Part shown: in pieces, positions 11,133 through 22,509 of the stretch | Layout of the letters: each line of letters starts with the position of its first letter | Numbering within the stretch: the stretch's first letter is position 1 | NCBI GenBank assembly: GCA_027624675.1 | Contig: JAQBTZ010000001.1 | Span: 1 to 23,365, forward strand | Origin: a bacterium | GTDB lineage: Bacteria; Patescibacteriota; WWE3; 2-01-FULL-39-13; JAQBTZ01 | DNA: 23,365 bases | Reading direction: 5' to 3' | Made by a program: the position numbers and the translations under genes | The notes under the pieces: model-generated | Seen by the model: the letters and a program-made list of their open reading frames with translations, nothing else | Databases searched by the model: none | What the model was told of the DNA's origin: nothing

Positions 11133-12797
11133 TTATCCCTCAACAATAATTGCCAATATTACTGGGTTTCTTCCTGTTTCTTTGTAGAAAAACTTACCTA
11201 ATTCTTTATCTACCTCTTGTTTTATAAAGTTCCAATCAGAAAGTTTGTCTTTGTTTAAAAGTATTACTTTCTCAACCTTTTGTGTTGCGTTATGGATAAG
11301 TCCTTTTGACTCTTTCATATATACAAAGCCTCTTGAGTTAATCTCAATTTTTCCAGAAACTTTTTGTGTTTTACTGTTAAATGGTATTGCTATTGCTACA
11401 ATCCCGTCATCTGCTAGCTGTTGTCTGTCTTTTATTACTATTGGATCAAGACTTTTTTGTCTGTTTCCGTCAATAAATACACTACCAATTTTATATACTT
11501 CACCTAGTTTAACATTACCATTTTCAATTAATAACGATTGTCCCTCGCTTAGTTCGAAAAAATTTTCTTTATTATGACCAAGTTTTGAGACTAAATTTGT
11601 GTAAGCTCTCATTGATTTTATTGTTCCACCTATTGGCATAAAGTATTTAGGCTTAGCAATTGCTGCAAGCATAGTAATATCTCCACTTGCACCATGTCCT
11701 GATACGTGTAGATTTTCTTGAACATCTTTGTACCATACCTCGGCACCTAATAATGTAAGTTTATCAATCATGGCATCTATCTGGTTAAATGATCCTGGAA
11801 TAGGGTCAGCTGAGAAAATAACTATGGAGTCGTCTTGGATTTTTATATTTTTATGAGTTGCTGAGGCTATTCTTCCAAGTGCTGATTCTGATTGTCCATA
11901 TGCACCAGTCATAATATATACAAGGTTTTCATCTTTGTATTTACTTATCTCTTTTTCATCAACAAACACACTAACTGGAGAATTAAGATAACCTAATGTT
12001 CTGGCTACCTCTACATTGGTTTTTATTGATCTACCAATAATTACAACTTTTCTGTGGTGTTTAATTGCAGAGTCAATTACTTGTTGAATTCGAGATATAT
12101 TTGATGAAACGGTTGTAACAATGATTTGTTTACCTTCATTTTTTTCCATTGCCATCTGAAATGTTTCTCCTAGTACCCTTTCTGACCTTGTGTAACCGCT
12201 TGTAGAGGATCCTAATGAGTCGGAAAGCAATAAGGTAGGATTTTCATCAGCTAGCTTTGCAAGTTTGCCAACCTCAAATGGTTTGTCCATAACTGGTGAC
12301 CAGTCAAACTTGAAGTCAGAAACATGTACTATTAAGTTATTATTAATTTTGATTCCGTATGCAAGGCTATCTGGTACTGAGTGGTTAACTCTAAATGGTG
12401 TTATATTAAATGATCCGATCTTGAAATTTGGTATGTCAGGATCAATTATCTTTAGCACAGATTTATCAATATTATGTTCTTTAAATTTTTCTCTTAAAAA
12501 CCCAAGTACTAATTTTGTTCCATAAACTGGCACATTTATATGCGCCAATAAATAAGGCACAGCTCCTATATGGTCTTCGTGGCCATGTGTTAATAATATT
12601 CCTATTACTTTTTCACTTCGTTCAATTACATAGCTAAAATCAGGAATTACAATATCAACTCCGTACATGTCAGCATCTGGAAAGCCAATCCCACAATCAA
12701 CTATTAATATCTCATTTTCTGTTTCGTAAACGTACATGTTTTTATTTACGTTTGTTGTTCCACCTATTGGTATCAATTTTACTTGTGCATTTTCCAT
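11133..12797 (-). CDS. rnj: RNase J-like metallo-beta-lactamase/beta-CASP ribonuclease
   Basis: A 554-aa protein of normal RNase J length, last gene of the minus-strand operon. RNase J combines endonuclease and 5'-3' exonuclease activity in mRNA decay and rRNA maturation. The zinc motifs HGHEDH (71-76), His139 (NHSVPDS) and Asp161 (SDFKFD) are present, as are beta-CASP signatures GRSIKTN, PIPGS and HVSGHGASGD (His368). Unusually, the motif that is normally PVHGEYR reads PIGGTIKS, so the His that usually coordinates the second metal is Gly (position 390). The normally conserved ASNIHRIQQ reads SSNISRIQQ. It starts four bases after the stop of the UDG gene, with no Shine-Dalgarno. The family assignment is firm; activity is less certain. 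Confidence 0.92.
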   Translation of the reverse strand: MENAQVKLIPIGGTTNVNKNMYVYETENEILIVDCGIGFPDADMYGVDIVIPDFSYVIERSEKVIGILLTHGHEDHIGAVPYLLAHINVPVYGTKLVLGFLREKFKEHNIDKSVLKIIDPDIPNFKIGSFNITPFRVNHSVPDSLAYGIKINNNLIVHVSDFKFDWSPVMDKPFEVGKLAKLADENPTLLLSDSLGSSTSGYTRSERVLGETFQMAMEKNEGKQIIVTTVSSNISRIQQVIDSAIKHHRKVVIIGRSIKTNVEVARTLGYLNSPVSVFVDEKEISKYKDENLVYIMTGAYGQSESALGRIASATHKNIKIQDDSIVIFSADPIPGSFNQIDAMIDKLTLLGAEVWYKDVQENLHVSGHGASGDITMLAAIAKPKYFMPIGGTIKSMRAYTNLVSKLGHNKENFFELSEGQSLLIENGNVKLGEVYKIGSVFIDGNRQKSLDPIVIKDRQQLADDGIVAIAIPFNSKTQKVSGKIEINSRGFVYMKESKGLIHNATQKVEKVILLNKDKLSDWNFIKQEVDKELGKFFYKETGRNPVILAIIVEG

Positions 12798-12801
12798 ATT
12801 T

Positions 12802-13377
12802 TTAATTATTTTTACTACTAATAGTTTCTATTATAGCTGGGATTTGTAAAAAGTCTTGTACAAAAGCTTTTTTAAATTCACCATTTCTTAGTGCTGCTGC
12901 AGGGTGGTAAATAGGATATATATTTAAATCTGCTTTAGTTAATAACTTTCCGTGTGACTCTGATAATACTGTTTCTGGCAAAAAAAAGTTTAATGCGAAT
13001 TTTCCAAGGGTGACAATTAATTTTGGTTTAATAATATCAAGCTGTCTTTTTAAGTATGTTTCACATGCCTTAATTTCTTGTATCGATGGGTTTCTATTTT
13101 CGGGTGGCCTGTGTTTAATTATATTCCCAATCCAGATATCTTTCCTTGTAATTTTTATTGAATCAAGATTTTTGTTTAATAGTTTACCTGCTAATCCAAC
13201 AAATGGTTTTCCTGTTTTATCCTCTGATGCACCTGGGGCCTCCCCTATAAATACTAACTCTGCATCATAAAACCCCTCCCCTGCTACACTGCAGTTTGAG
13301 GTTTTATATAGAGGGCATTTTGTGCAAATTTTTATCTCAGTTTCAATTTCTTGTAATAATTTAAATTTATCGTTCAT
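12802..13377 (-). CDS. Family-4 uracil-DNA glycosylase (Fe-S type), variant ligand set
   Basis: A 191-aa protein that should remove uracil from DNA to start base-excision repair. Motif A is [20 protein letters not shown] (46-64), and the HPAALR motif with His158 is the second active-site motif. The Fe-S cluster of family 4 normally uses four Cys. Here Cys18 and Cys21 (ICTKCPLY) and Cys104 (ACETYL) are present, but the usual KCRPP cysteine is KHRPP, with His89 instead. An extra Cys29 (SNCSVAGEG) lies close to the first pair. The gene sits in an RNA-decay operon, six bases after the Lon-like gene and four before rnj, so it is co-transcribed although its role is in DNA repair. Confidence 0.93.
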
Positions 13378-13383
13378 TGATAA

Positions 13384-14472
13384 CTAGTTTCCAATAAAAT
13401 CGGGTAGGTATTTTTTAACATTAGTCGAATTAATAACTGTTTTTTCTATTTTTCCTTCAACCCTTTCTTTTGCTACTTTTCTGACCATAGTCTCAATATT
13501 GCGTCGAAGCGACCTTATTCCAGTGTCAAAACCTAAAGGCCTAATTAAAAGTGGCCATACTTCGTCTTCAATTTCTACATCATTATTTGTAAGTCCTGAG
13601 CTAGATAATACTTTGTCAAATAAATAATTTTTAGCAATCACCTCTTTTTGCTCATCAGTATATGCTGGCATTCTAATAATTTCTAACCTATCAGATAGTG
13701 CTGTTGAAAAAGTGCCTGTATTGTTTGCGCTACATATAAATAAAACACCTGAAAGATTTATCGGAAAATCTATGTAATGATCTCTAAATGTTGTGTTTTG
13801 TTCTGGGTCAAGTATCTCAAGTAATGCTGCCATTATATCACTCCTAAGTCCTCTTTCTCCCGAGGCTTTATCTACCTCGTCAAGTAATATCAGAGGATTC
13901 ATTACTTTGGTTCGGATTAGTGATTTAATAATTTGTCCTGGTTCTGCATCAGGTAGAGCTTTGCTTTGTCCTCTTATTTCAAGTATTGAACCTGTTGCAC
14001 CAAGAGAAATTCTAATAAATTCACGTCCTAAGCTTTTTGCAATTGATGCTGCCATTGTAGTTTTACCAATTCCTTGTAACCCAACTAAGCATAATATTGG
14101 AGCGTGATATTCTTCGGTTAACAAAGCATCTTCTGGCCTATTCGTGCCATTTTCTTTTCTTAAGGTGATTATTGAAAGGTATTCTAAGATCCTTTCTTTT
14201 ACATCTTCAAGTCCGTAATGGTGTTTATCTAGAATTTCTTTTGCATGTTTTAGATCAAGGTTATCCTCTGTTGATTTACCCCAAGGGATTGATGTAATTG
14301 TCTCAACATATCTTGAGATTGTCTCAAACTCAGAAGAGTAACCACCAAGTTTTGCCATTCGGTTTAGCCTATCAAGCATTTTTTTAGCTCTATCCCTCAG
14401 ATCAACTGGGATTTTGTCGCTCTCTATTTTTCTCTCTAAATCTTTTAGTTCTTCGAATAAAAAATCACTCAT
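13384..14472 (-). CDS. Lon-derived AAA+ ATPase without protease domain
   Basis: A 362-aa protein equal to the central part of Lon (about 800 aa). It has the helical region that precedes the ATPase (GGYSSEFETISRYVETITSIPWGKST, about 43-68), Walker A GLQGIGKT (131-138), Walker B LLDEVD (196-201), LLEILDPEQN...DHYIDFP (218-237), sensor 1 SAN (248-250), the arginine-finger region (DR, 261-262) and sensor 2 GIRSLRR (318-324). It lacks the N-terminal substrate-recognition domain and ends at about the point where the Ser-Lys protease domain would begin. The canonical pore loop RGHRRTYIGAMPG is RGQSKALPDAEPG, so the Tyr that grips substrate is gone. It probably hydrolyses ATP but should not degrade protein by itself. 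Two bases separate it from the upstream zinc-ribbon gene. Confidence 0.9.
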   Translation of the reverse strand: MSDFLFEELKDLERKIESDKIPVDLRDRAKKMLDRLNRMAKLGGYSSEFETISRYVETITSIPWGKSTEDNLDLKHAKEILDKHHYGLEDVKERILEYLSIITLRKENGTNRPEDALLTEEYHAPILCLVGLQGIGKTTMAASIAKSLGREFIRISLGATGSILEIRGQSKALPDAEPGQIIKSLIRTKVMNPLILLDEVDKASGERGLRSDIMAALLEILDPEQNTTFRDHYIDFPINLSGVLFICSANNTGTFSTALSDRLEIIRMPAYTDEQKEVIAKNYLFDKVLSSSGLTNNDVEIEDEVWPLLIRPLGFDTGIRSLRRNIETMVRKVAKERVEGKIEKTVINSTNVKKYLPDFIGN

Positions 14473-14474
14473 AA

Positions 14475-15413
14475 TTAGAAGGTAAAGTCTTTATAATAAA
14501 GTTTATCATCATCAATAATTATTCCAATAGGATACCTTATCGATGGTGATGTTATGCCTGTTGTTTTTTCAAAATACTCCTGTCCTTTTTTGTTTTTAAT
14601 AAAGATAAAGACCTGTCCTGTTTCAGGTAGAACAGACAAGGTATCTATAAAATACCCAGATTTTGAGAGATTTTTAGTGTCGCCCTTATAGCTTTCGACG
14701 TTGCGATCGAGATAATTTTGGCTGTTACTTACAAGTAAGTAGTCATCAATCACTTTTGATTTGTAATCTGTCTCAGATAAAATCTTTTCGATAGAATATG
14801 CAAACTCGCGGTTGGTAAATTTAAGTATGATAATATATTCATTGTCATTTATTGCTACTGAAATATTCCCTTCGGTTTGAGAGATGATTGTATCAACAGT
14901 TAGTTTTGTTGCAAGGTCTGTTAAACTTGGAGTTTTATCTTTAAAATAACTATTTATGTTATATAGCTCTTTTGATTCGTAATAGATATCAAAATTATTC
15001 TCGATAAATTCTGCATTTTTAGTAGTGTTTAGATTTGTAGATTTTAAATCGAGTTTATTTTTAATAATTTGTGTTTGAAACCTGTTTTCTGGGGATACGT
15101 TTATTTCAAATATCTCAAGTTTTTCATGTTTTGTTAGATTTTTTGTTATTGTATATGGTAGATAAAACCCAAGCCCCATAAACAAAACTAAGGCAAATGA
15201 TATTATAACTTTTCTTACGTATTTTTGTTGTTGTCTCGGTTGAAAACTTCCAGCATTGATTAAAGGTTGTGGAAAGAGATCAAAGTCATATTCAATAAAC
15301 TGGGAGTTTGGTTTTTCTTTTTTATTACCACAAAACGAACAATAATAGCCTTTAGAATTACTGGTTTTATTACACTTTGGGCAAGTGTATTTTTCTGGCA
15401 GGTGGTTTTTCAT
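14475..15413 (-). CDS. Zinc-ribbon membrane protein, unknown function
   Basis: A 312-aa protein. Residues 11-28 form a zinc ribbon with two CxxC pairs (Cys11/14 and Cys25/28; YTCPKCNKTSNSKGYYCSFCG). A transmembrane helix at about 67-90 follows, and the remaining about 220 residues would be extracytoplasmic. That domain has alternating strand-like stretches (EIFEINVSPENRF, ISVAINDNEYIIILKF, VFIFIKNKKGQEYF) and no family I recognise; a short AxxLxSxTG-like feature is not present. A zinc ribbon on the cytoplasmic side and a large outer domain is a common architecture in Gram-positive and candidate-phylum bacteria. A reasonable Shine-Dalgarno (AAGG) lies about seven bases before the ATG, unusual in this window. 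It sits between pnp (12 bases) and the Lon-like gene (2 bases). Confidence 0.75.
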   Translation of the reverse strand: MKNHLPEKYTCPKCNKTSNSKGYYCSFCGNKKEKPNSQFIEYDFDLFPQPLINAGSFQPRQQQKYVRKVIISFALVLFMGLGFYLPYTITKNLTKHEKLEIFEINVSPENRFQTQIIKNKLDLKSTNLNTTKNAEFIENNFDIYYESKELYNINSYFKDKTPSLTDLATKLTVDTIISQTEGNISVAINDNEYIIILKFTNREFAYSIEKILSETDYKSKVIDDYLLVSNSQNYLDRNVESYKGDTKNLSKSGYFIDTLSVLPETGQVFIFIKNKKGQEYFEKTTGITSPSIRYPIGIIIDDDKLYYKDFTF

Positions 15414-15425
15414 ATCAAACCTTAT

Positions 15426-17552
15426 CTATTTACTCTGTTCTGTTTTTCCCTCTAGTTGTTTTTTTGATAAAGATACTTTTTCACCATCAACTTTGATTAT
15501 CTTTACTCTTATCTTATCACCTTCTTTTAATTTTTCTCTAGGGTCTTTAAGAAATTCATTACTTATCTCACTAACATGTAGTAATCCAGTCTTTGTTCTA
15601 CTTATCTTTACAAATGCTCCAAAATCAACAACACTATCAACTTCAGCATCTTCAATTATTTCTCCAACTTCAAATGTTTTTGTAAGTCCTAGAATATCGG
15701 CTAATGCCATCTCAAGTGAATCTTTATTAACTGCAGACACCGACACTAATCCATCGTCATCTACATCAACAGTTGCTCCTGATTTTTCAATAATTGCTCT
15801 TATAGTTTTTCCACCAGGTCCTATTAGTAGACCTATTTGTTCTTTGTCAATCTGTATGGTCTTAATTCTTGGCGCTAGCGCTGAAAGATCTGCACGAGGA
15901 GCTAAAAGCACCTTATCCATTACATCTAAAACTATATTTCTAGCAATTCTTGATCTTTCAAGTACATCTTTAAATATTTCTAAAGGTAATCCTCCAGTTT
16001 TAATATCCATCTGTAATGCAGTTGCACCTGTTCTTGTTCCTGTAAGTTTAAAGTCCATAAATCCGTTTGCATCCTCTACTCCTTGCATATCAGTTAGTAA
16101 CATGTATTTACCTTCATCACCCCACTCTTTATCTTCATCTACTATAAGTCCTACTCCAATACCTGCAACTGGAGCTTTTATAGGTACTCCTGCATCCATT
16201 AAGGATAATGTTGAACCACAAGTTGATGCCATTGATGTACTTCCATTTGAAGAAAGCACCTCTGAAACTACTCTAATAGTATATGGAAAATCTTTTTTAT
16301 CAGGTAACACTGGCTCCAAAGCTTTTTCAGCAAGTGTTCCATGTCCTATATCTCTTCTTCCTGGACCCCGTAGTGGACCTGTTTGACCATAGGTAAACGG
16401 AGGTGTGTTGTAATGGTGAAAGTACTGTTTTGTACTTTCTCCATACATATTTTGTATTGTTTGTTCAAGTGAAGGTGCGCCAAGTGTTACAACTGTTAAA
16501 ACTTGGGTTATACCTCGGTTAAAAACAGCAGAACCATGTGTTCGATTTAGTAATCCTACCTGCGCACTAAGTGGTCTTATTTCATCAAGGCTTCTACCGT
16601 CTGGTCGTTTTTTATCTTCGATAATTAGTTTTCTAATTGCATCTTTTTGTAGCTCTTCTAAGCATTTGCTCATTATTGATTTTGAGTATTTTCCTTCAAA
16701 ATTTTTGAAAGTATCTGTTTGTAGCTCATTCCAGTTGCCATTAAAGTCCATTTTGCTACTTTCCTTTTCAAGGATAGTTTTGATTTTATCAAAAGCAAAC
16801 GCTTTAACTTCAGTTAATATGTCACTATCTACCTTAAATGATTTATGCACATATTTTTCATTTCCAACTTCTTTAGCAAAATCATTAATAAAGTCGATAA
16901 CTTGTGTTGCGTAAGGTTCTGCCTCGGTCATTAATTCAAACAATTTAGTTTCAGGGATCTGATGAAAATCACCTTCCATTGCAAGTACTTTTTTACCTTT
17001 CAAAAAGCTTACTGTAAGGTTTGCCTTTAAGGTTTTTTTGTCTTGTAAAAATGGATTAAATACAGTTTTGTTTTCTTGATCTAGTCCAACATGCACTGAT
17101 CCAGCTGGTCCATTAAATGGTATATTGCTTGCAGCTAAAGCTGTATTTGCTGCGATAAGTCCTAATAGTTCTGGATCATTTTTAGAGTCAACCTGTAAAA
17201 CAGTAACAATAATTTGAGTATCATCCATGTAATCTTTAGGAAAAAGTGGTCGAAGAGCGTGGTCTATAAGTCTTCCTGAGATAATTGCTTCATCAGAAGT
17301 TCGTCCTTCTCTTTTAATAAATCTTGAGCTTTTAATAAGTCCACCTGCGTATAATTTTTCTTCGTAGTCAACTCTTAAAGGAAACCAGTTTGGCTCTTCG
17401 GTTGCAGGAACGGATACTGCTGTTGCTAATACTATTGTGCCACCAAGGGTAGCTAGTACAGCACAATTTGCTTGTTGTGCTAATTTCCCTGTCTCAAGCA
17501 CTAATGTTTCACTACCGAGTTGCATTTCTTTTCGGACTTCTTTTATATTCAT
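15426..17552 (-). CDS. pnp: Polynucleotide phosphorylase
   Basis: A 708-aa protein of standard length. PNPase degrades RNA 3' to 5' using phosphate and releases nucleoside diphosphates; it forms a trimeric ring. Two RNase PH domains flank an all-alpha linker. The first carries LRVDYEEKLYAGG, SSRFIKREGRTSDEAII and RPLFPKDY. The second carries RPDGRSLDEIRPL, GPGRRDIGHG, SNGSTSMASTCG and MDFKLTGTRTGATALQMDIK, the last containing both catalytic Asp. A KH domain (about 563-622, IGPGGKTIRAI) and an S1 domain (about 630-698, VDFGAFVKI...GLLHVSEIS) complete the protein. All expected catalytic and RNA-binding parts are present. The 140-base gap before it, after rpsO, holds a hairpin-rich leader that may control it. 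Confidence 0.97.
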   Translation of the reverse strand: MNIKEVRKEMQLGSETLVLETGKLAQQANCAVLATLGGTIVLATAVSVPATEEPNWFPLRVDYEEKLYAGGLIKSSRFIKREGRTSDEAIISGRLIDHALRPLFPKDYMDDTQIIVTVLQVDSKNDPELLGLIAANTALAASNIPFNGPAGSVHVGLDQENKTVFNPFLQDKKTLKANLTVSFLKGKKVLAMEGDFHQIPETKLFELMTEAEPYATQVIDFINDFAKEVGNEKYVHKSFKVDSDILTEVKAFAFDKIKTILEKESSKMDFNGNWNELQTDTFKNFEGKYSKSIMSKCLEELQKDAIRKLIIEDKKRPDGRSLDEIRPLSAQVGLLNRTHGSAVFNRGITQVLTVVTLGAPSLEQTIQNMYGESTKQYFHHYNTPPFTYGQTGPLRGPGRRDIGHGTLAEKALEPVLPDKKDFPYTIRVVSEVLSSNGSTSMASTCGSTLSLMDAGVPIKAPVAGIGVGLIVDEDKEWGDEGKYMLLTDMQGVEDANGFMDFKLTGTRTGATALQMDIKTGGLPLEIFKDVLERSRIARNIVLDVMDKVLLAPRADLSALAPRIKTIQIDKEQIGLLIGPGGKTIRAIIEKSGATVDVDDDGLVSVSAVNKDSLEMALADILGLTKTFEVGEIIEDAEVDSVVDFGAFVKISRTKTGLLHVSEISNEFLKDPREKLKEGDKIRVKIIKVDGEKVSLSKKQLEGKTEQSK

Positions 17553-17692: not shown

Positions 17693-17941
17693 TTAACCTT
17701 TGTTTTCTTTCATCTTTTTAGTCATAGTTTCAAAAGATTTTTCATCCTTACCTTTAAGGTAAGAAAGTAGTCTTCTTCTTTTGTTTACCATCTGAAGTAA
17801 ACCTCTTCTAGAACTAAAATCTTTCTTATGACTCTTTAGGTGTTCTGAAAGTTCTGTGATCTTTAATCCCAAGGTTTCAATCTGTGATTCAGGTGTTCCA
17901 ACCTGATATTCAATTTTAGTTTCTTTTTTTATTGTCGCCAT
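17693..17941 (-). CDS. rpsO: 30S ribosomal protein S15
   Basis: An 82-aa uS15 protein, slightly shorter than the usual 88-89 aa. It binds 16S rRNA helices early in assembly of the small-subunit platform. The family core is clear: [50 protein letters not shown] (residues 14-63, quoted in pieces: [41 protein letters not shown]). The C-terminal helix is shortened and lacks the usual LGLRK end. It lies 12 bases after the DHH-like gene and upstream of pnp, the common rpsO-pnp order. A TAGAAT box six bases before the ATG suggests an additional leaderless start. Confidence 0.95.
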
Positions 17942-17953: not shown

Positions 17954-18577
17954 TCAGGAATTAATACTTTTTAATAGTAGTTCTGCTGATTTCTTAGGAA
18001 TTTTAATATTCCAAGATGCAATTGTTTGTAAAACTAATAAGGAAATATTGTCGATTTCATTTCCAATAATATTAATTGTACCAAATTTTTCATTATTTGC
18101 AGTATTGTCAATATTAATAATACTAGTTTTAGTAAATGAATCAGGATTTTCTTTAACCATCTCAATCTTATCTAAGTTCCAACATCCAATTGTAATTGTA
18201 GTGTCATATGATCCGCCCATTACTTTGTGCTCGATTTTATCTGCAGTAAAGTTGTCTGAGATAGGTTTTAAGATAAGATTTAATTTGTTATCCTCTATCG
18301 AATAGTTAACCTCTTCTATTGACTTATCTAGGTAATCTACACTTATAACTAAATGTTTTTCTGGGGTTGTTGAGCTAATTTTAACAGAATCAGAGATTAA
18401 CCCCTTTAATGTTTCACTAACTGCACCTTTGTATAAAAAGTCTACACTTGCACCACTTTCTTTTAGTGCAATATATATAGCAAAGGCTGATGCTAATCCA
18501 TCTTCTGAGATTTTATCGTAAGGAATAACAGCAATTGTTTTGCCCTTTTTTATTAATTCGTTAGTATTTATTTCCAT
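17954..18577 (-). CDS. Degenerate DHH-family (NrnA-like) protein, probably catalytically inactive
   Basis: A 207-aa protein that follows the pattern of the DHH phosphoesterase domain of NrnA-type nanoRNases but has lost its active site. Residues 14-31 (TIAVIPYDKISEDGLASA) align with the family HxxPDxDaxGS motif: His becomes Tyr20, Pro-Asp becomes Ile23-Ser24, and only Asp26 remains. Asp81 (VISVDYLD) fits the next metal Asp. IINIDNTANNEKFGTINI (153-170) aligns with IDHHxsNxxFGdiN, so the signature DHH is DNT (157-159). The C-terminal DHHA1 substrate domain is absent. The position just upstream of rpsO-pnp is where DHH/nrnA genes often lie in the nusA-infB-rbfA-truB-rpsO-pnp cluster, which supports the homology. 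It ends in TGA. Role unknown; an RNA-binding or scaffold function is possible. Confidence 0.7.
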   Translation of the reverse strand: MEINTNELIKKGKTIAVIPYDKISEDGLASAFAIYIALKESGASVDFLYKGAVSETLKGLISDSVKISSTTPEKHLVISVDYLDKSIEEVNYSIEDNKLNLILKPISDNFTADKIEHKVMGGSYDTTITIGCWNLDKIEMVKENPDSFTKTSIINIDNTANNEKFGTINIIGNEIDNISLLVLQTIASWNIKIPKKSAELLLKSINS

Positions 18578-19995: not shown

Positions 19996-21507
19996 TTACA
20001 TAACCTGAATATAGTTACCGTTTTTAAAGTTTGGAAAGTTTGGGGTTACTAATATTCCACAATCACTACCTTTTGAGGCTTTTTTAATATCAACCTTTCC
20101 TGATTTTATCTTTTTAATTCTTCCTTCGTATATATTTAAAATTTCTTCTGTAGTTTCTTTTCTTGATAATTTATAGCTTGCTTCGTTTTCCCAGATTATA
20201 ACTTTTCGCCCAACTGCCATTGTCCCCATAATAATTTCACACCCTGCGATAACATCACCAGATGGCAATGGAAATATTTTTTTAACTATTGATAATCCTT
20301 TAACATCTTCTTCTTGTTTTAATAGTTCACCTTCTAATGCTTTTTGTACGTCTTCAAGTAACTCGTAAATAATATTGTAATCTTTTACTATTACTTTTCT
20401 CTGCTTAGCTAGTTCCATAACCCCTGTTTCTTTTGCATTAAAAGAGAATATTGTTGATCCTGTAGCTGATGCTAACAGCACATCCGATTCGTTAACATTT
20501 CCTACTCCCTTTAATATTATTTTTATCTTTGCTTTTTCTGCCTCAATTCCAAATAAGCTTTGTTCTAATGCTTCTAATGTTCCTTTTGCGTCTGCTTTTA
20601 TAATAATATTGAGTAATTTTTCACTTGTTGTATCCTCTTCTTCTAAACCTGCTATTGCTGCCATTTGCTCATTATAAATTGATTCTACTTTCCCTTTATT
20701 ATCTATCTCTACTACTATTGATCCAATTTCTGGTATGGTTTTGAAACCTAAAATTTCTGCTGGAGTACCTGGTGTTGATAAAGGTATTTGTTCACCTTTA
20801 AAGTTAGTCATCGATCTTACTGTTGCATCTGATCCTCCTGCCCAGATTTTATCTCCTTTTTTAAGCGTTCCACTTTGTATTAAAATTGTTGCAAGTACCC
20901 CTTTTCTTTTATCAAGTTTGGACTCGATTACTGTTCCAAGTAGCATTTCATCTGTAGTATCTGGTAGTTCTAAAAGTTCTGCTAAGGTTAAGATTGATTC
21001 TAAAAGTTGATCTATATTTGTTCCGTTAAGTGCAGATATCTCAACACTCATAACGTCTCCACCATACTCTTCGACAAGCACATCATTTTCTGATAACTCT
21101 CTCTTAATTTTATCTACATTAGCACCAGGTGCATCAATTTTATTTATAGCAACAATTATTGGTGCCTCAGCAGCTTTTGCATGATTAATTGCCTCTATGG
21201 TTTGTGGTTGGACTCCATCATCTGCAGCAACAACTAAAACAACTATATCTGCAGCCTGTCCCCCACGTGAACGCATTTCTGTAAAAGCGGCATGGCCTGG
21301 TGTGTCTATAAATGTTACTTCGCCTTTTGGGGTTTGTACCTGGTAAGCTCCAATGTGTTGAGTTATACCACCAAACTCTGATTTGGTTACATTTGTTTGT
21401 CTTATTGAGTCTAAAAGGGTTGTTTTTCCATGATCAACGTGACCCATAACAGTTACAATAGGTGGTCTAGTTTTTTTAATTGGCTTAACTGTTTTGATTT
21501 TTGGCAT
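19996..21507 (-). CDS. infB: Translation initiation factor IF-2, short form
   Basis: A 503-aa GTPase that brings fMet-tRNA to the 30S subunit and promotes subunit joining. The GTPase motifs are intact: G1 GHVDHGKT (22-29), switch [12 protein letters not shown] (46-57), DTPGH (68-72) and NKID (122-125). Domain II, the C1 domain and the fMet-tRNA-binding C2 domain follow; C2 includes [16 protein letters not shown] and the protein ends [14 protein letters not shown]. Only about 15 residues precede the G domain, so the long N-terminal region of E. coli or B. subtilis IF-2 (716-890 aa) is missing. It starts six bases after the nusA stop. The usual next gene, rbfA, is not found downstream. Confidence 0.97.
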
Positions 21508-21513
21508 AAGTAA

Positions 21514-22509
21514 TTATTCTTTTTCTTCTTTTGCACTTTCGTCATCATCATCTTCTGCTACAACTTTTCCAGAACCTTTAATATCTATTTTCCATCCTGT
21601 AAGTTTAGCAGCTAACCTTACGTTTTGGCCTTCTTTCCCAATCGCAAGTGAAAGTTGATCTTCTGGTACTGAGATTGTTGCAGTTTTAGTATCGCTGTTT
21701 AAAACAACCTTAGTAACAGTGGCAGGAGAAAGGCTTTGTGCAATAAATTTCTCGGTGTCTGCAGAAAATGTAACGATATCAATTTTTTCCGTACCCAACT
21801 CTTTTATGATAGTCTGTACCCTTACACCTTTTTGTCCTACACATGAACCAATGGGATCAACATGTGAATCAGAGGAAGAAACCGCAATTTTTGTTCGTGA
21901 TCCAGCTTCTCTTGCTACTGACTCAATTTTTACAACATCTGAATTTATTTCTGGTACCTCGATACTAAATAATTCTTTAACAAAGTTAGGGTCAGATCTT
22001 GATACTACTACCTCTTCTCCTCTTGGTGTATTTTGAATTTCTTTGATTAGTACCTTTATTCGTTGATTTAGTCTGTATGTTTCGTTTGGTACTTGTTCGT
22101 GTGGTGGCATTATTCCCTGTGTTTTACCCAAATCTACAATAACAAGACCACTATCTGCTCTAAAGATTACTGCATTAACTATGCTTCCAATCTTGCTTCT
22201 GTATTCTTTAATAATCACCTCTTTTTCAGTTTCCCTAACCTTTTGTAATATTACCTGCTTTGCAGTTTGTGTAGCGATTCGGCCAAAGCCTGCTGGGGTA
22301 ACATCTTTATCACCTTTAAGAACTTTTACACTTCCATCTTCTGGACTCATTTCTACTGTTAGTTCTTCGTCTTCTGTTGCAACAGTTGGGTTATCTTTTC
22401 TAAAAGCTGCAATAATTGCCTCTTTAATAGAAGATATGACCTGTTCAGGAGATATTCCTCTTTCTGTTGCTACTTGATTTAAAGCTGCACTAAATTCTGT
22501 TATTGCCAT
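21514..22509 (-). CDS. nusA: Transcription elongation/termination factor NusA
   Basis: A 331-aa NusA that binds RNA polymerase and nascent RNA and affects pausing, termination and antitermination. The N-terminal domain (1-105; SAALNQVATERGISPEQVISSI) binds polymerase. An S1 domain follows (about 106-172; GSIVNAVIFRADSGLVIVDLGKTQGIMPPHEQV), then KH1 (GSCVGQKGVRVQTI, 221-234) and KH2 (AIGKEGQNVRLAAKLTGWKIDI, 289-310). The tail is acidic (EDDDDESAKEEKE), and the AR repeats of E. coli NusA are absent, as is normal outside Proteobacteria. An intrinsic terminator lies just upstream, so nusA-infB forms its own unit. Confidence 0.96.
   Translation of the reverse strand: MAITEFSAALNQVATERGISPEQVISSIKEAIIAAFRKDNPTVATEDEELTVEMSPEDGSVKVLKGDKDVTPAGFGRIATQTAKQVILQKVRETEKEVIIKEYRSKIGSIVNAVIFRADSGLVIVDLGKTQGIMPPHEQVPNETYRLNQRIKVLIKEIQNTPRGEEVVVSRSDPNFVKELFSIEVPEINSDVVKIESVAREAGSRTKIAVSSSDSHVDPIGSCVGQKGVRVQTIIKELGTEKIDIVTFSADTEKFIAQSLSPATVTKVVLNSDTKTATISVPEDQLSLAIGKEGQNVRLAAKLTGWKIDIKGSGKVVAEDDDDESAKEEKE

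Follow-up and report, generated by a model that had tools for sequence, protein, structure and literature searches.

A putative stand-alone AAA+ motor derived from Lon in Patescibacteria, without a protease domain and with rebuilt pore loops

Lon is the textbook case of a motor and a protease fused in one chain, and a tyrosine in its pore is the accepted handle on the substrate. The Hsp100/Clp unfoldases (ClpB, ClpC, ClpX) are AAA+ rings that remodel proteins and have no protease domain of their own. The protein studied here would resemble them in this; its gene encodes a Lon-like ATPase of 362 amino acids (13384..14472, minus strand) and lies in a stretch of 23,365 nucleotides (the window) from a bacterium of the patescibacterial lineage WWE3 (contig JAQBTZ010000001.1). 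We refer to this protein, and to its relatives of the same make-up, as cores.

The closest described system is the LonA protease family (bacterial Lon and LONP1), which shares with the core the three-helix bundle, the AAA+ module, the lid, the Walker A and B motifs, the sensors, the arginine finger and the DPxQ signalling motif. Unlike LonA, the core is without the N-domain and the S16 protease domain. Pore loop 1 of LonA reads GHRRTYxGAMPG, whereas that of the core family reads G[RKQ]SKxxP[ED]AEPG; the family also differs by a leucine at most pore-loop-2 aromatic positions and by a lid motif RPxG[FY]D. A functional parallel is offered by LONP1 as a protease-independent chaperone, which functions through its ATPase alone, as we propose for the core: according to PMC8368198, its anti-aggregation work needs ATP hydrolysis while the protease is dispensable, and PMC7801493 provides the same precedent. 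LONP1, however, keeps its protease and N-domain; the core gene has neither, and the pore tyrosine is not kept.

Profile matches and the alignment to full-length Lons place in the core a Lon-type three-helix bundle (approximately residues 2-61), the AAA+ alpha/beta module and the lid. The protein starts near residue 240 of bacterial Lon and stops ahead of the protease domain. Its Pfam matches include Lon_lid and not ClpB_D2-small, so that its lid is not of the Hsp100/Clp type; against the NCBIfam lon equivalog it scores 350 bits, below the cut-off of 608. Identity to Lon rows covering the full core amounts to 36-41% across 306-343 aligned residues. The original prediction, made from the sequence alone, had described a Lon ATPase core that ends before the protease boundary with no protease fragment behind it, and the domain matches confirm this: the gene six bases downstream encodes a uracil-DNA glycosylase, and the S16 domain with its Ser-Lys dyad is absent from the core and from the scanned neighbour proteins. 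Nor does the window's own genome, which is 84% complete, contain a Lon protease domain at E<=1 that could betray a separate full-length lon, a question the prediction had raised. By these features the core falls outside the LonA family, failing on the protease domain, the N-domain and the pore tyrosine; its descent from the Lon motor is clear.

For comparison we assembled 205 distinct core sequences, i.e. 117 distinct ones among 120 listed relatives (lengths of about 200-630 amino acids admitted) and 88 from loci (any length), and set them against 68 full-length Lons, 20 from Patescibacteria and 48 others. The loci comprise the window, all 32 core-length loci and 60 hand-picked ones of 103 core-bearing genomes; from these 93, five duplicates were dropped. 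Walker A (residues 131-138, GLQGIGKT; 14059..14082) keeps K137, and Walker B (residues 194-199; 13876..13893) keeps D198 and E199, in 205/205 members. The same holds for sensor 1 (N250; 13723..13725) and for the arginine finger (R262; 13687..13689), which aligns with the arginine of the DRME motif in human Lon; PMC12994072 gives the LONP1 finger as R652. Sensor 2 (R320; 13513..13515) is present in 204/205, the remaining sequence having a gap. All these residues are encoded on the minus strand. The DPxQ motif, named ISS in the same source, occurs in at least 190 of the 205 cores. The ratio of nonsynonymous to synonymous substitution rates (dN/dS) is 0.05-0.06 in the two unsaturated core pairs among 12 tried. 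The family thus retains its residues for binding and hydrolysing ATP and for signalling between subunits.

The pore loops present a different picture. Lon pore loop 1 reads G-H-R-R-T-Y-[VI]-G-[AS]-[ML]-P-G, and its tyrosine pulls the substrate, as Y565 in LONP1 (PMC12994072) and Y402 in Thermus Lon (PMC8835725). In pore loop 1 of the window protein (residues 168-180; 13933..13971, minus strand) this position is L173 (13954-13956). The column is occupied by tyrosine in 68/68 full-length Lons and in only 16/205 cores, where the other states are F 80, L 32, H 14, I 9, S 9, T 8, N 7, D 7, V 5, M 4, E 4, R 3, Q 3, K 2, A 1 and X 1. Among the window core and its nine nearest relatives (73-99% identical) leucine occurs seven times and isoleucine, phenylalanine and serine once each. 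Among the 67 Lon-invariant columns, the tyrosine column shows the greatest variability in the cores (3.05 bits against a median of 0.17). Fourteen such columns exceed 1 bit, and eight of them lie within the 11 pore-loop columns (hypergeometric p 5.7e-5, with loop bounds picked after seeing the alignment and related, non-independent sequences). Both groups are equally diverse, with mean pairwise identities in the AAA region of 0.626 in cores and 0.621 in Lons. When the sets are thinned to 17 cores (mean identity 0.52) and eight Lons (0.58), the column holds N 4, S 3, L 2, F 2 and single occurrences of others in the cores, versus tyrosine in 8/8 Lons.

Other positions have become fixed instead. 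Four residues past the tyrosine column, E177 is found in 200/205 cores, where Lon has Met, Leu or Phe; M214 (202/205), P312 (204/205), G314 (204/205) and D316 (199/205) are newly fixed as well. The pore-loop-2 region (residues 206-216; 13825..13857, minus strand) reads LRSDIMA in the window protein, compared with [F/Y]RGDP[A/S][S/A] in Lon. Its aromatic position (Y599 in LONP1), counted back gap-free from DPxQ, is aromatic in 59/68 Lons and in 0/205 cores, with leucine in 150/205; two of the 205 cores have an aromatic residue one or two residues away. Both pore loops have thus been rebuilt. The original prediction had inferred from the window that the pulling tyrosine, and with it the grip on the substrate, was lost. 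The first part is true of the window protein but does not extend to the family, in which phenylalanine or tyrosine occupies the column in 96/205 cores; the family trait is a constraint lost at this column together with a newly fixed glutamate, and the loss of an aromatic residue is no family rule. The prediction is right in its direction, but no single new residue has replaced the tyrosine, and to speak of a loss of grip is too strong.

A protein search with the core scored 7998 sequences, of which 7959 are relatives at E<=1e-10. The 120 listed ones are 352-416 amino acids long, and those with a named organism are from Patescibacteria (WWE3, Saccharimonadales, Nomurabacteria, Patescibacteria group), the others being titled only 'bacterium'. 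Core-length loci carry the names WWE3, Dojkabacteria, Levybacteria, Roizmanbacteria, Daviesbacteria, Gottesmanbacteria, Amesbacteria, Woesebacteria and Shapirobacteria. Among the best 80 loci, the 48 next-best, mostly titled as other phyla, all have frames of 623-925 amino acids, two of which touch a contig end. All 205 distinct cores end 0-7 residues beyond P357 (one, L033, runs into the end of its contig); homologues thus share the truncation, and a lone truncation of the window's copy, which the original prediction had left in play, is thereby ruled out. According to a quick unrooted tree of 137 rows (90 thinned cores, two divergent cores, 25 of the 48 other Lons and all 20 fetched patescibacterial Lons; one core row, L170, drew a warning for its long branch and unusual composition), a branch sets the 90 cores apart (support by the Shimodaira-Hasegawa-like approximate likelihood ratio test, SH-aLRT, 95). 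Two divergent proteins of 359 amino acids from one further family join them (SH-aLRT 99), and all 45 full-length Lons, including the 20 from Patescibacteria, fall on the opposite side (SH-aLRT 99). A derivation of the core from the full-length Lons of Patescibacteria is unsupported, as these group with other Lons in this unrooted tree. Because the cores are confined to one side and the patescibacterial Lons to the other, the topology fits a single ancient origin and speaks against recent trimming of a local Lon. The common C-terminal end, E177, M214, the RPxG[FY]D motif and the position in the tree would together define a Patescibacteria Lon-core family, and the window protein has all of these features. 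We found no description of such a family in the open-licence literature, in which it appears undescribed.

A core is present in at least 103 of 379 genomes of the phylum, and a strong Lon_C match (E 8.7e-79 or better) in 56; 36 genomes have both, 67 only the core, 20 only Lon and 256 neither. Genomes were counted as core-bearing from matches read at 365 bits or more, so that divergent members are missed among the matches listed; two lower-scoring divergent members and one broken core (genome G028) are counted as lacking it. In the window's class, a sample which rests on the genome listing being sorted by kinship, 32 of 33 genomes have the core, and a strong Lon_C match occurs in none of the 33. 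Weak PF05362 matches (E 1e-5 to 1e-7) in seven of the 33 fall in frames mostly of 440-620 amino acids, and we take them to be RadA/ComM-type Lon-like domains. ClpP and FtsH are each found in 33/37 genomes of the class and Hsp100-type ATPases in 37/37. Given these co-occurrence counts and the proteases and unfoldases retained, the core is neither a plain substitute for Lon nor the leftover of a general loss of proteolysis.

We lean, with confidence only a little above even, towards a stand-alone Lon-derived AAA+ motor, i.e. an ATP-driven remodeller or holder of proteins without proteolysis and with a rebuilt pore. The core would form a Lon-like ring, whose ATP cycle would remodel or hold client proteins without cutting them, in the manner in which LONP1 prevents aggregation through its ATPase. 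As the old tyrosine paddle is no longer required, any pulling would be weaker, partial or performed by other pore residues, for which the fixed E177, M214 and the usual leucine of pore loop 2 are candidates. Several observations weigh against this proposal. The relaxed pore itself argues against a plain unfoldase. The Pfam scan of the core gave no match to an N-terminal substrate-binding domain, and the structure model is a monomer, which leaves the ring putative. Only four of the loci seen (L016, L022, L029, L171) have chaperonin genes, identified from their sequences, close to the core, and no CIRCE-like element, a sign of heat-shock control, was detected upstream of the core in the 93 loci (four in a shuffled control). 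A bolder formulation, which we regard as clearly less likely than not, is that of an old lineage of the Lon motor, at the level of the phylum, which gave up its protease activity, the domain for docking substrates and the requirement for an aromatic paddle and kept its ATPase fixed; the ring would no longer thread polypeptides and would act as an ATP-driven switch or holdase, often within an rpsO-pnp-udg-rnj-ftsK operon of Patescibacteria.

Initiators and MoxR-type ATPases reshape or load their partners. A core of this kind, in which the ATP cycle acts on a bound partner and nothing passes through the pore, is the strongest competitor to a remodeller or holder of proteins, though we regard it as rather unlikely. 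It would account for the change of the tyrosine column from invariance in 68 Lons to 3.05 bits in the cores and for the concentration of eight of the 14 relaxed columns in the pore loops; the tree moreover requires at least 13 changes between aromatic (27 rows) and non-aromatic residues (63 rows). Yet 146/205 cores retain a hydrophobic residue (F, L, Y, I, V or M) in this column, and newly fixed loop positions imply some job for the loop.

The gene neighbourhood bears on a role in RNA metabolism. Directly upstream of the core, on the minus strand like the other genes named here, lies the gene of a protein that carries a zinc-ribbon-like CxxC pair at its N-terminus as well as a hydrophobic stretch, both seen by eye (14475..15413; no Pfam or NCBIfam match), followed by pnp for polynucleotide phosphorylase (15426..17552) and rpsO for ribosomal protein S15 (17693..17941). 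Downstream are udg, encoding a family-4 uracil-DNA glycosylase (12802..13377), and rnj for ribonuclease J (11133..12797). Within 5 kb and on the same strand, 59 of the 88 non-redundant loci have pnp upstream, 58 rnj downstream and 49 both; udg is downstream in 38, an ftsK-like gene downstream in 49 and the zinc-ribbon protein upstream in 18, some contigs being too short to show neighbours. Gaps are below 100 bases in 27/38 core-udg pairs, 21/26 core-rnj pairs without intervening udg and 21/44 pnp-core pairs without an intervening zinc-ribbon gene. At 17/88 loci none of pnp, udg or rnj is in place within 5 kb. In genomes outside the core-bearing set, pnp-rnj linkage (up to 6 kb, one strand) occurs in 31/97 cases, compared with 12/31 with a core; three genomes of a divergent family, two of them linked, were set apart. 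Of 12 such intervals that we read in genomes outside that set, ten contain udg and none an intact core; two of these ten also hold a zinc-ribbon protein of 84 amino acids with a hydrophobic tail, and one (G028) a broken core. The operon therefore predates the core or does not depend on it, the core being a passenger often found at one set position.

The order of pnp, core and rnj, from which the original prediction had derived a role in RNA decay or remodelling, thus recurs, though the zinc-ribbon gene that had been placed within it does so in fewer loci. That the core is a partner of PNPase and RNase J is nonetheless unlikely. It is favoured by the 49 loci with both genes, by the short udg-free gaps to rnj, and by the divergent members of 359 amino acids, one of which lies about 2.3 kb after pnp and about 0.3 kb before rnj (G057) and the other about 2.3 kb after pnp (G039). 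Against it, linkage is similar with and without a core, and the operon exists without it and usually holds udg. Besides this DNA repair gene it includes rpsO and infB- and ftsK-like genes, and 17 of the 88 cores lack all three of pnp, udg and rnj nearby; E177 and the isoelectric point of 5.5 do not suggest RNA binding either. Rearranged loci made udg or the zinc-ribbon protein possible as a special partner of the core, a notion weakened by the intervals without an intact core, in which udg (10/12) and the short zinc ribbon (two) occur as well.

Even less probable is a ClpP-associated unfoldase that docks through a fixed [L/F]G[F/Y] at residues 313-315. Such a tripeptide ([L/F/V/M]G[F/Y]) occurs in 204/205 cores, while its middle position is Thr or Val in the 68 Lons, and most genomes of the class have ClpP. 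The docking motif of ClpX, however, sits in an exposed loop, and the one considered here lies just ahead of sensor 2 in the lid; four core-bearing genomes of the class (G091, G176, G225, G308) have no ClpP match, drafts in which genes may be missed. We give marginally less credence still to the idea that the core is a regulatory subunit and forms mixed rings with full-length Lon. Both genes occur together in 36 of 379 genomes, and full-length Lon is found in 36/103 genomes with a core versus 20/276 without, a comparison confounded by kinship; but 67 genomes have a core and no strong Lon_C match, including all 32 core-bearing ones of the class, and the window's own genome yielded no Lon protease domain at its 84% completeness. 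A decaying lon gene is hardly credible: a core broken into two open reading frames (256 and 99 amino acids) and another with an internal stop (G329) reveal that loss happens, but the shared end and the ATPase residues (204-205/205), kept across 205 sequences, and a dN/dS of 0.05-0.06 in two unsaturated pairs of 12 bear out the original preference for repurposing over decay.

Further upstream on the minus strand, the window contains nusA (21514..22509) and an infB-like translation initiation factor (19996..21507; cluster c5); the names ftsK, infB and GroEL/ES are our assumption from the sequences. Positions 17954-18577, upstream of rpsO, encode a protein of 207 amino acids without a Pfam match, in a BLAST cluster with a median of 307 amino acids; it is possibly a shortened DHH-type phosphoesterase. 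The zinc-ribbon protein beside pnp has 312 amino acids in the window and 84, ribbon and hydrophobic tail, in two core-lacking genomes (L200, L204). PNPase matches come in two pieces in seven genomes (G002, G008, G030, G048, G066, G080, G108), six of them in family f16; they lie mostly inside one long frame (two contigs in G066), which indicates an insertion or divergence of PNPase. At L016, L022 and L029 the core is divergent from groES/groEL-like genes, with a conserved protein of 156-165 amino acids on its other side and none of pnp, udg or rnj in place; these neighbours suggest a link to protein folding in that lineage. Locus L195 (genome G084) has a core of 442 amino acids with a low-complexity insert of about 80 residues between three-helix bundle and AAA+ module. 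The divergent cores L192 and L193 (G039, G057) keep the fixed Glu and Met, and their genomes also have a full-length Lon, as does G028, whose core (L208) is split between pnp and udg; in G005 and G136, of the same genus, the core is intact. Ten phage records (H1-H10) include Lon-like ATPase stretches of 37-41% identity, two being 1.7 kb long and perhaps host DNA. A plasmid search gave no match at megablast level.

The core family would represent a natural separation of what Lon combines: a lineage retained the motor, lost the protease, released the tyrosine handle from selection and fixed a nearby glutamate. It allows a direct test of a Lon ring without proteolysis or canonical grip. It also suggests which function to seek in genes labelled 'ATP-dependent Lon protease' or 'AAA family ATPase' in databases. 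Since the core is near-universal in the window's class (32/33), with no strong Lon protease domain alongside, it is likely to matter to these small cells.
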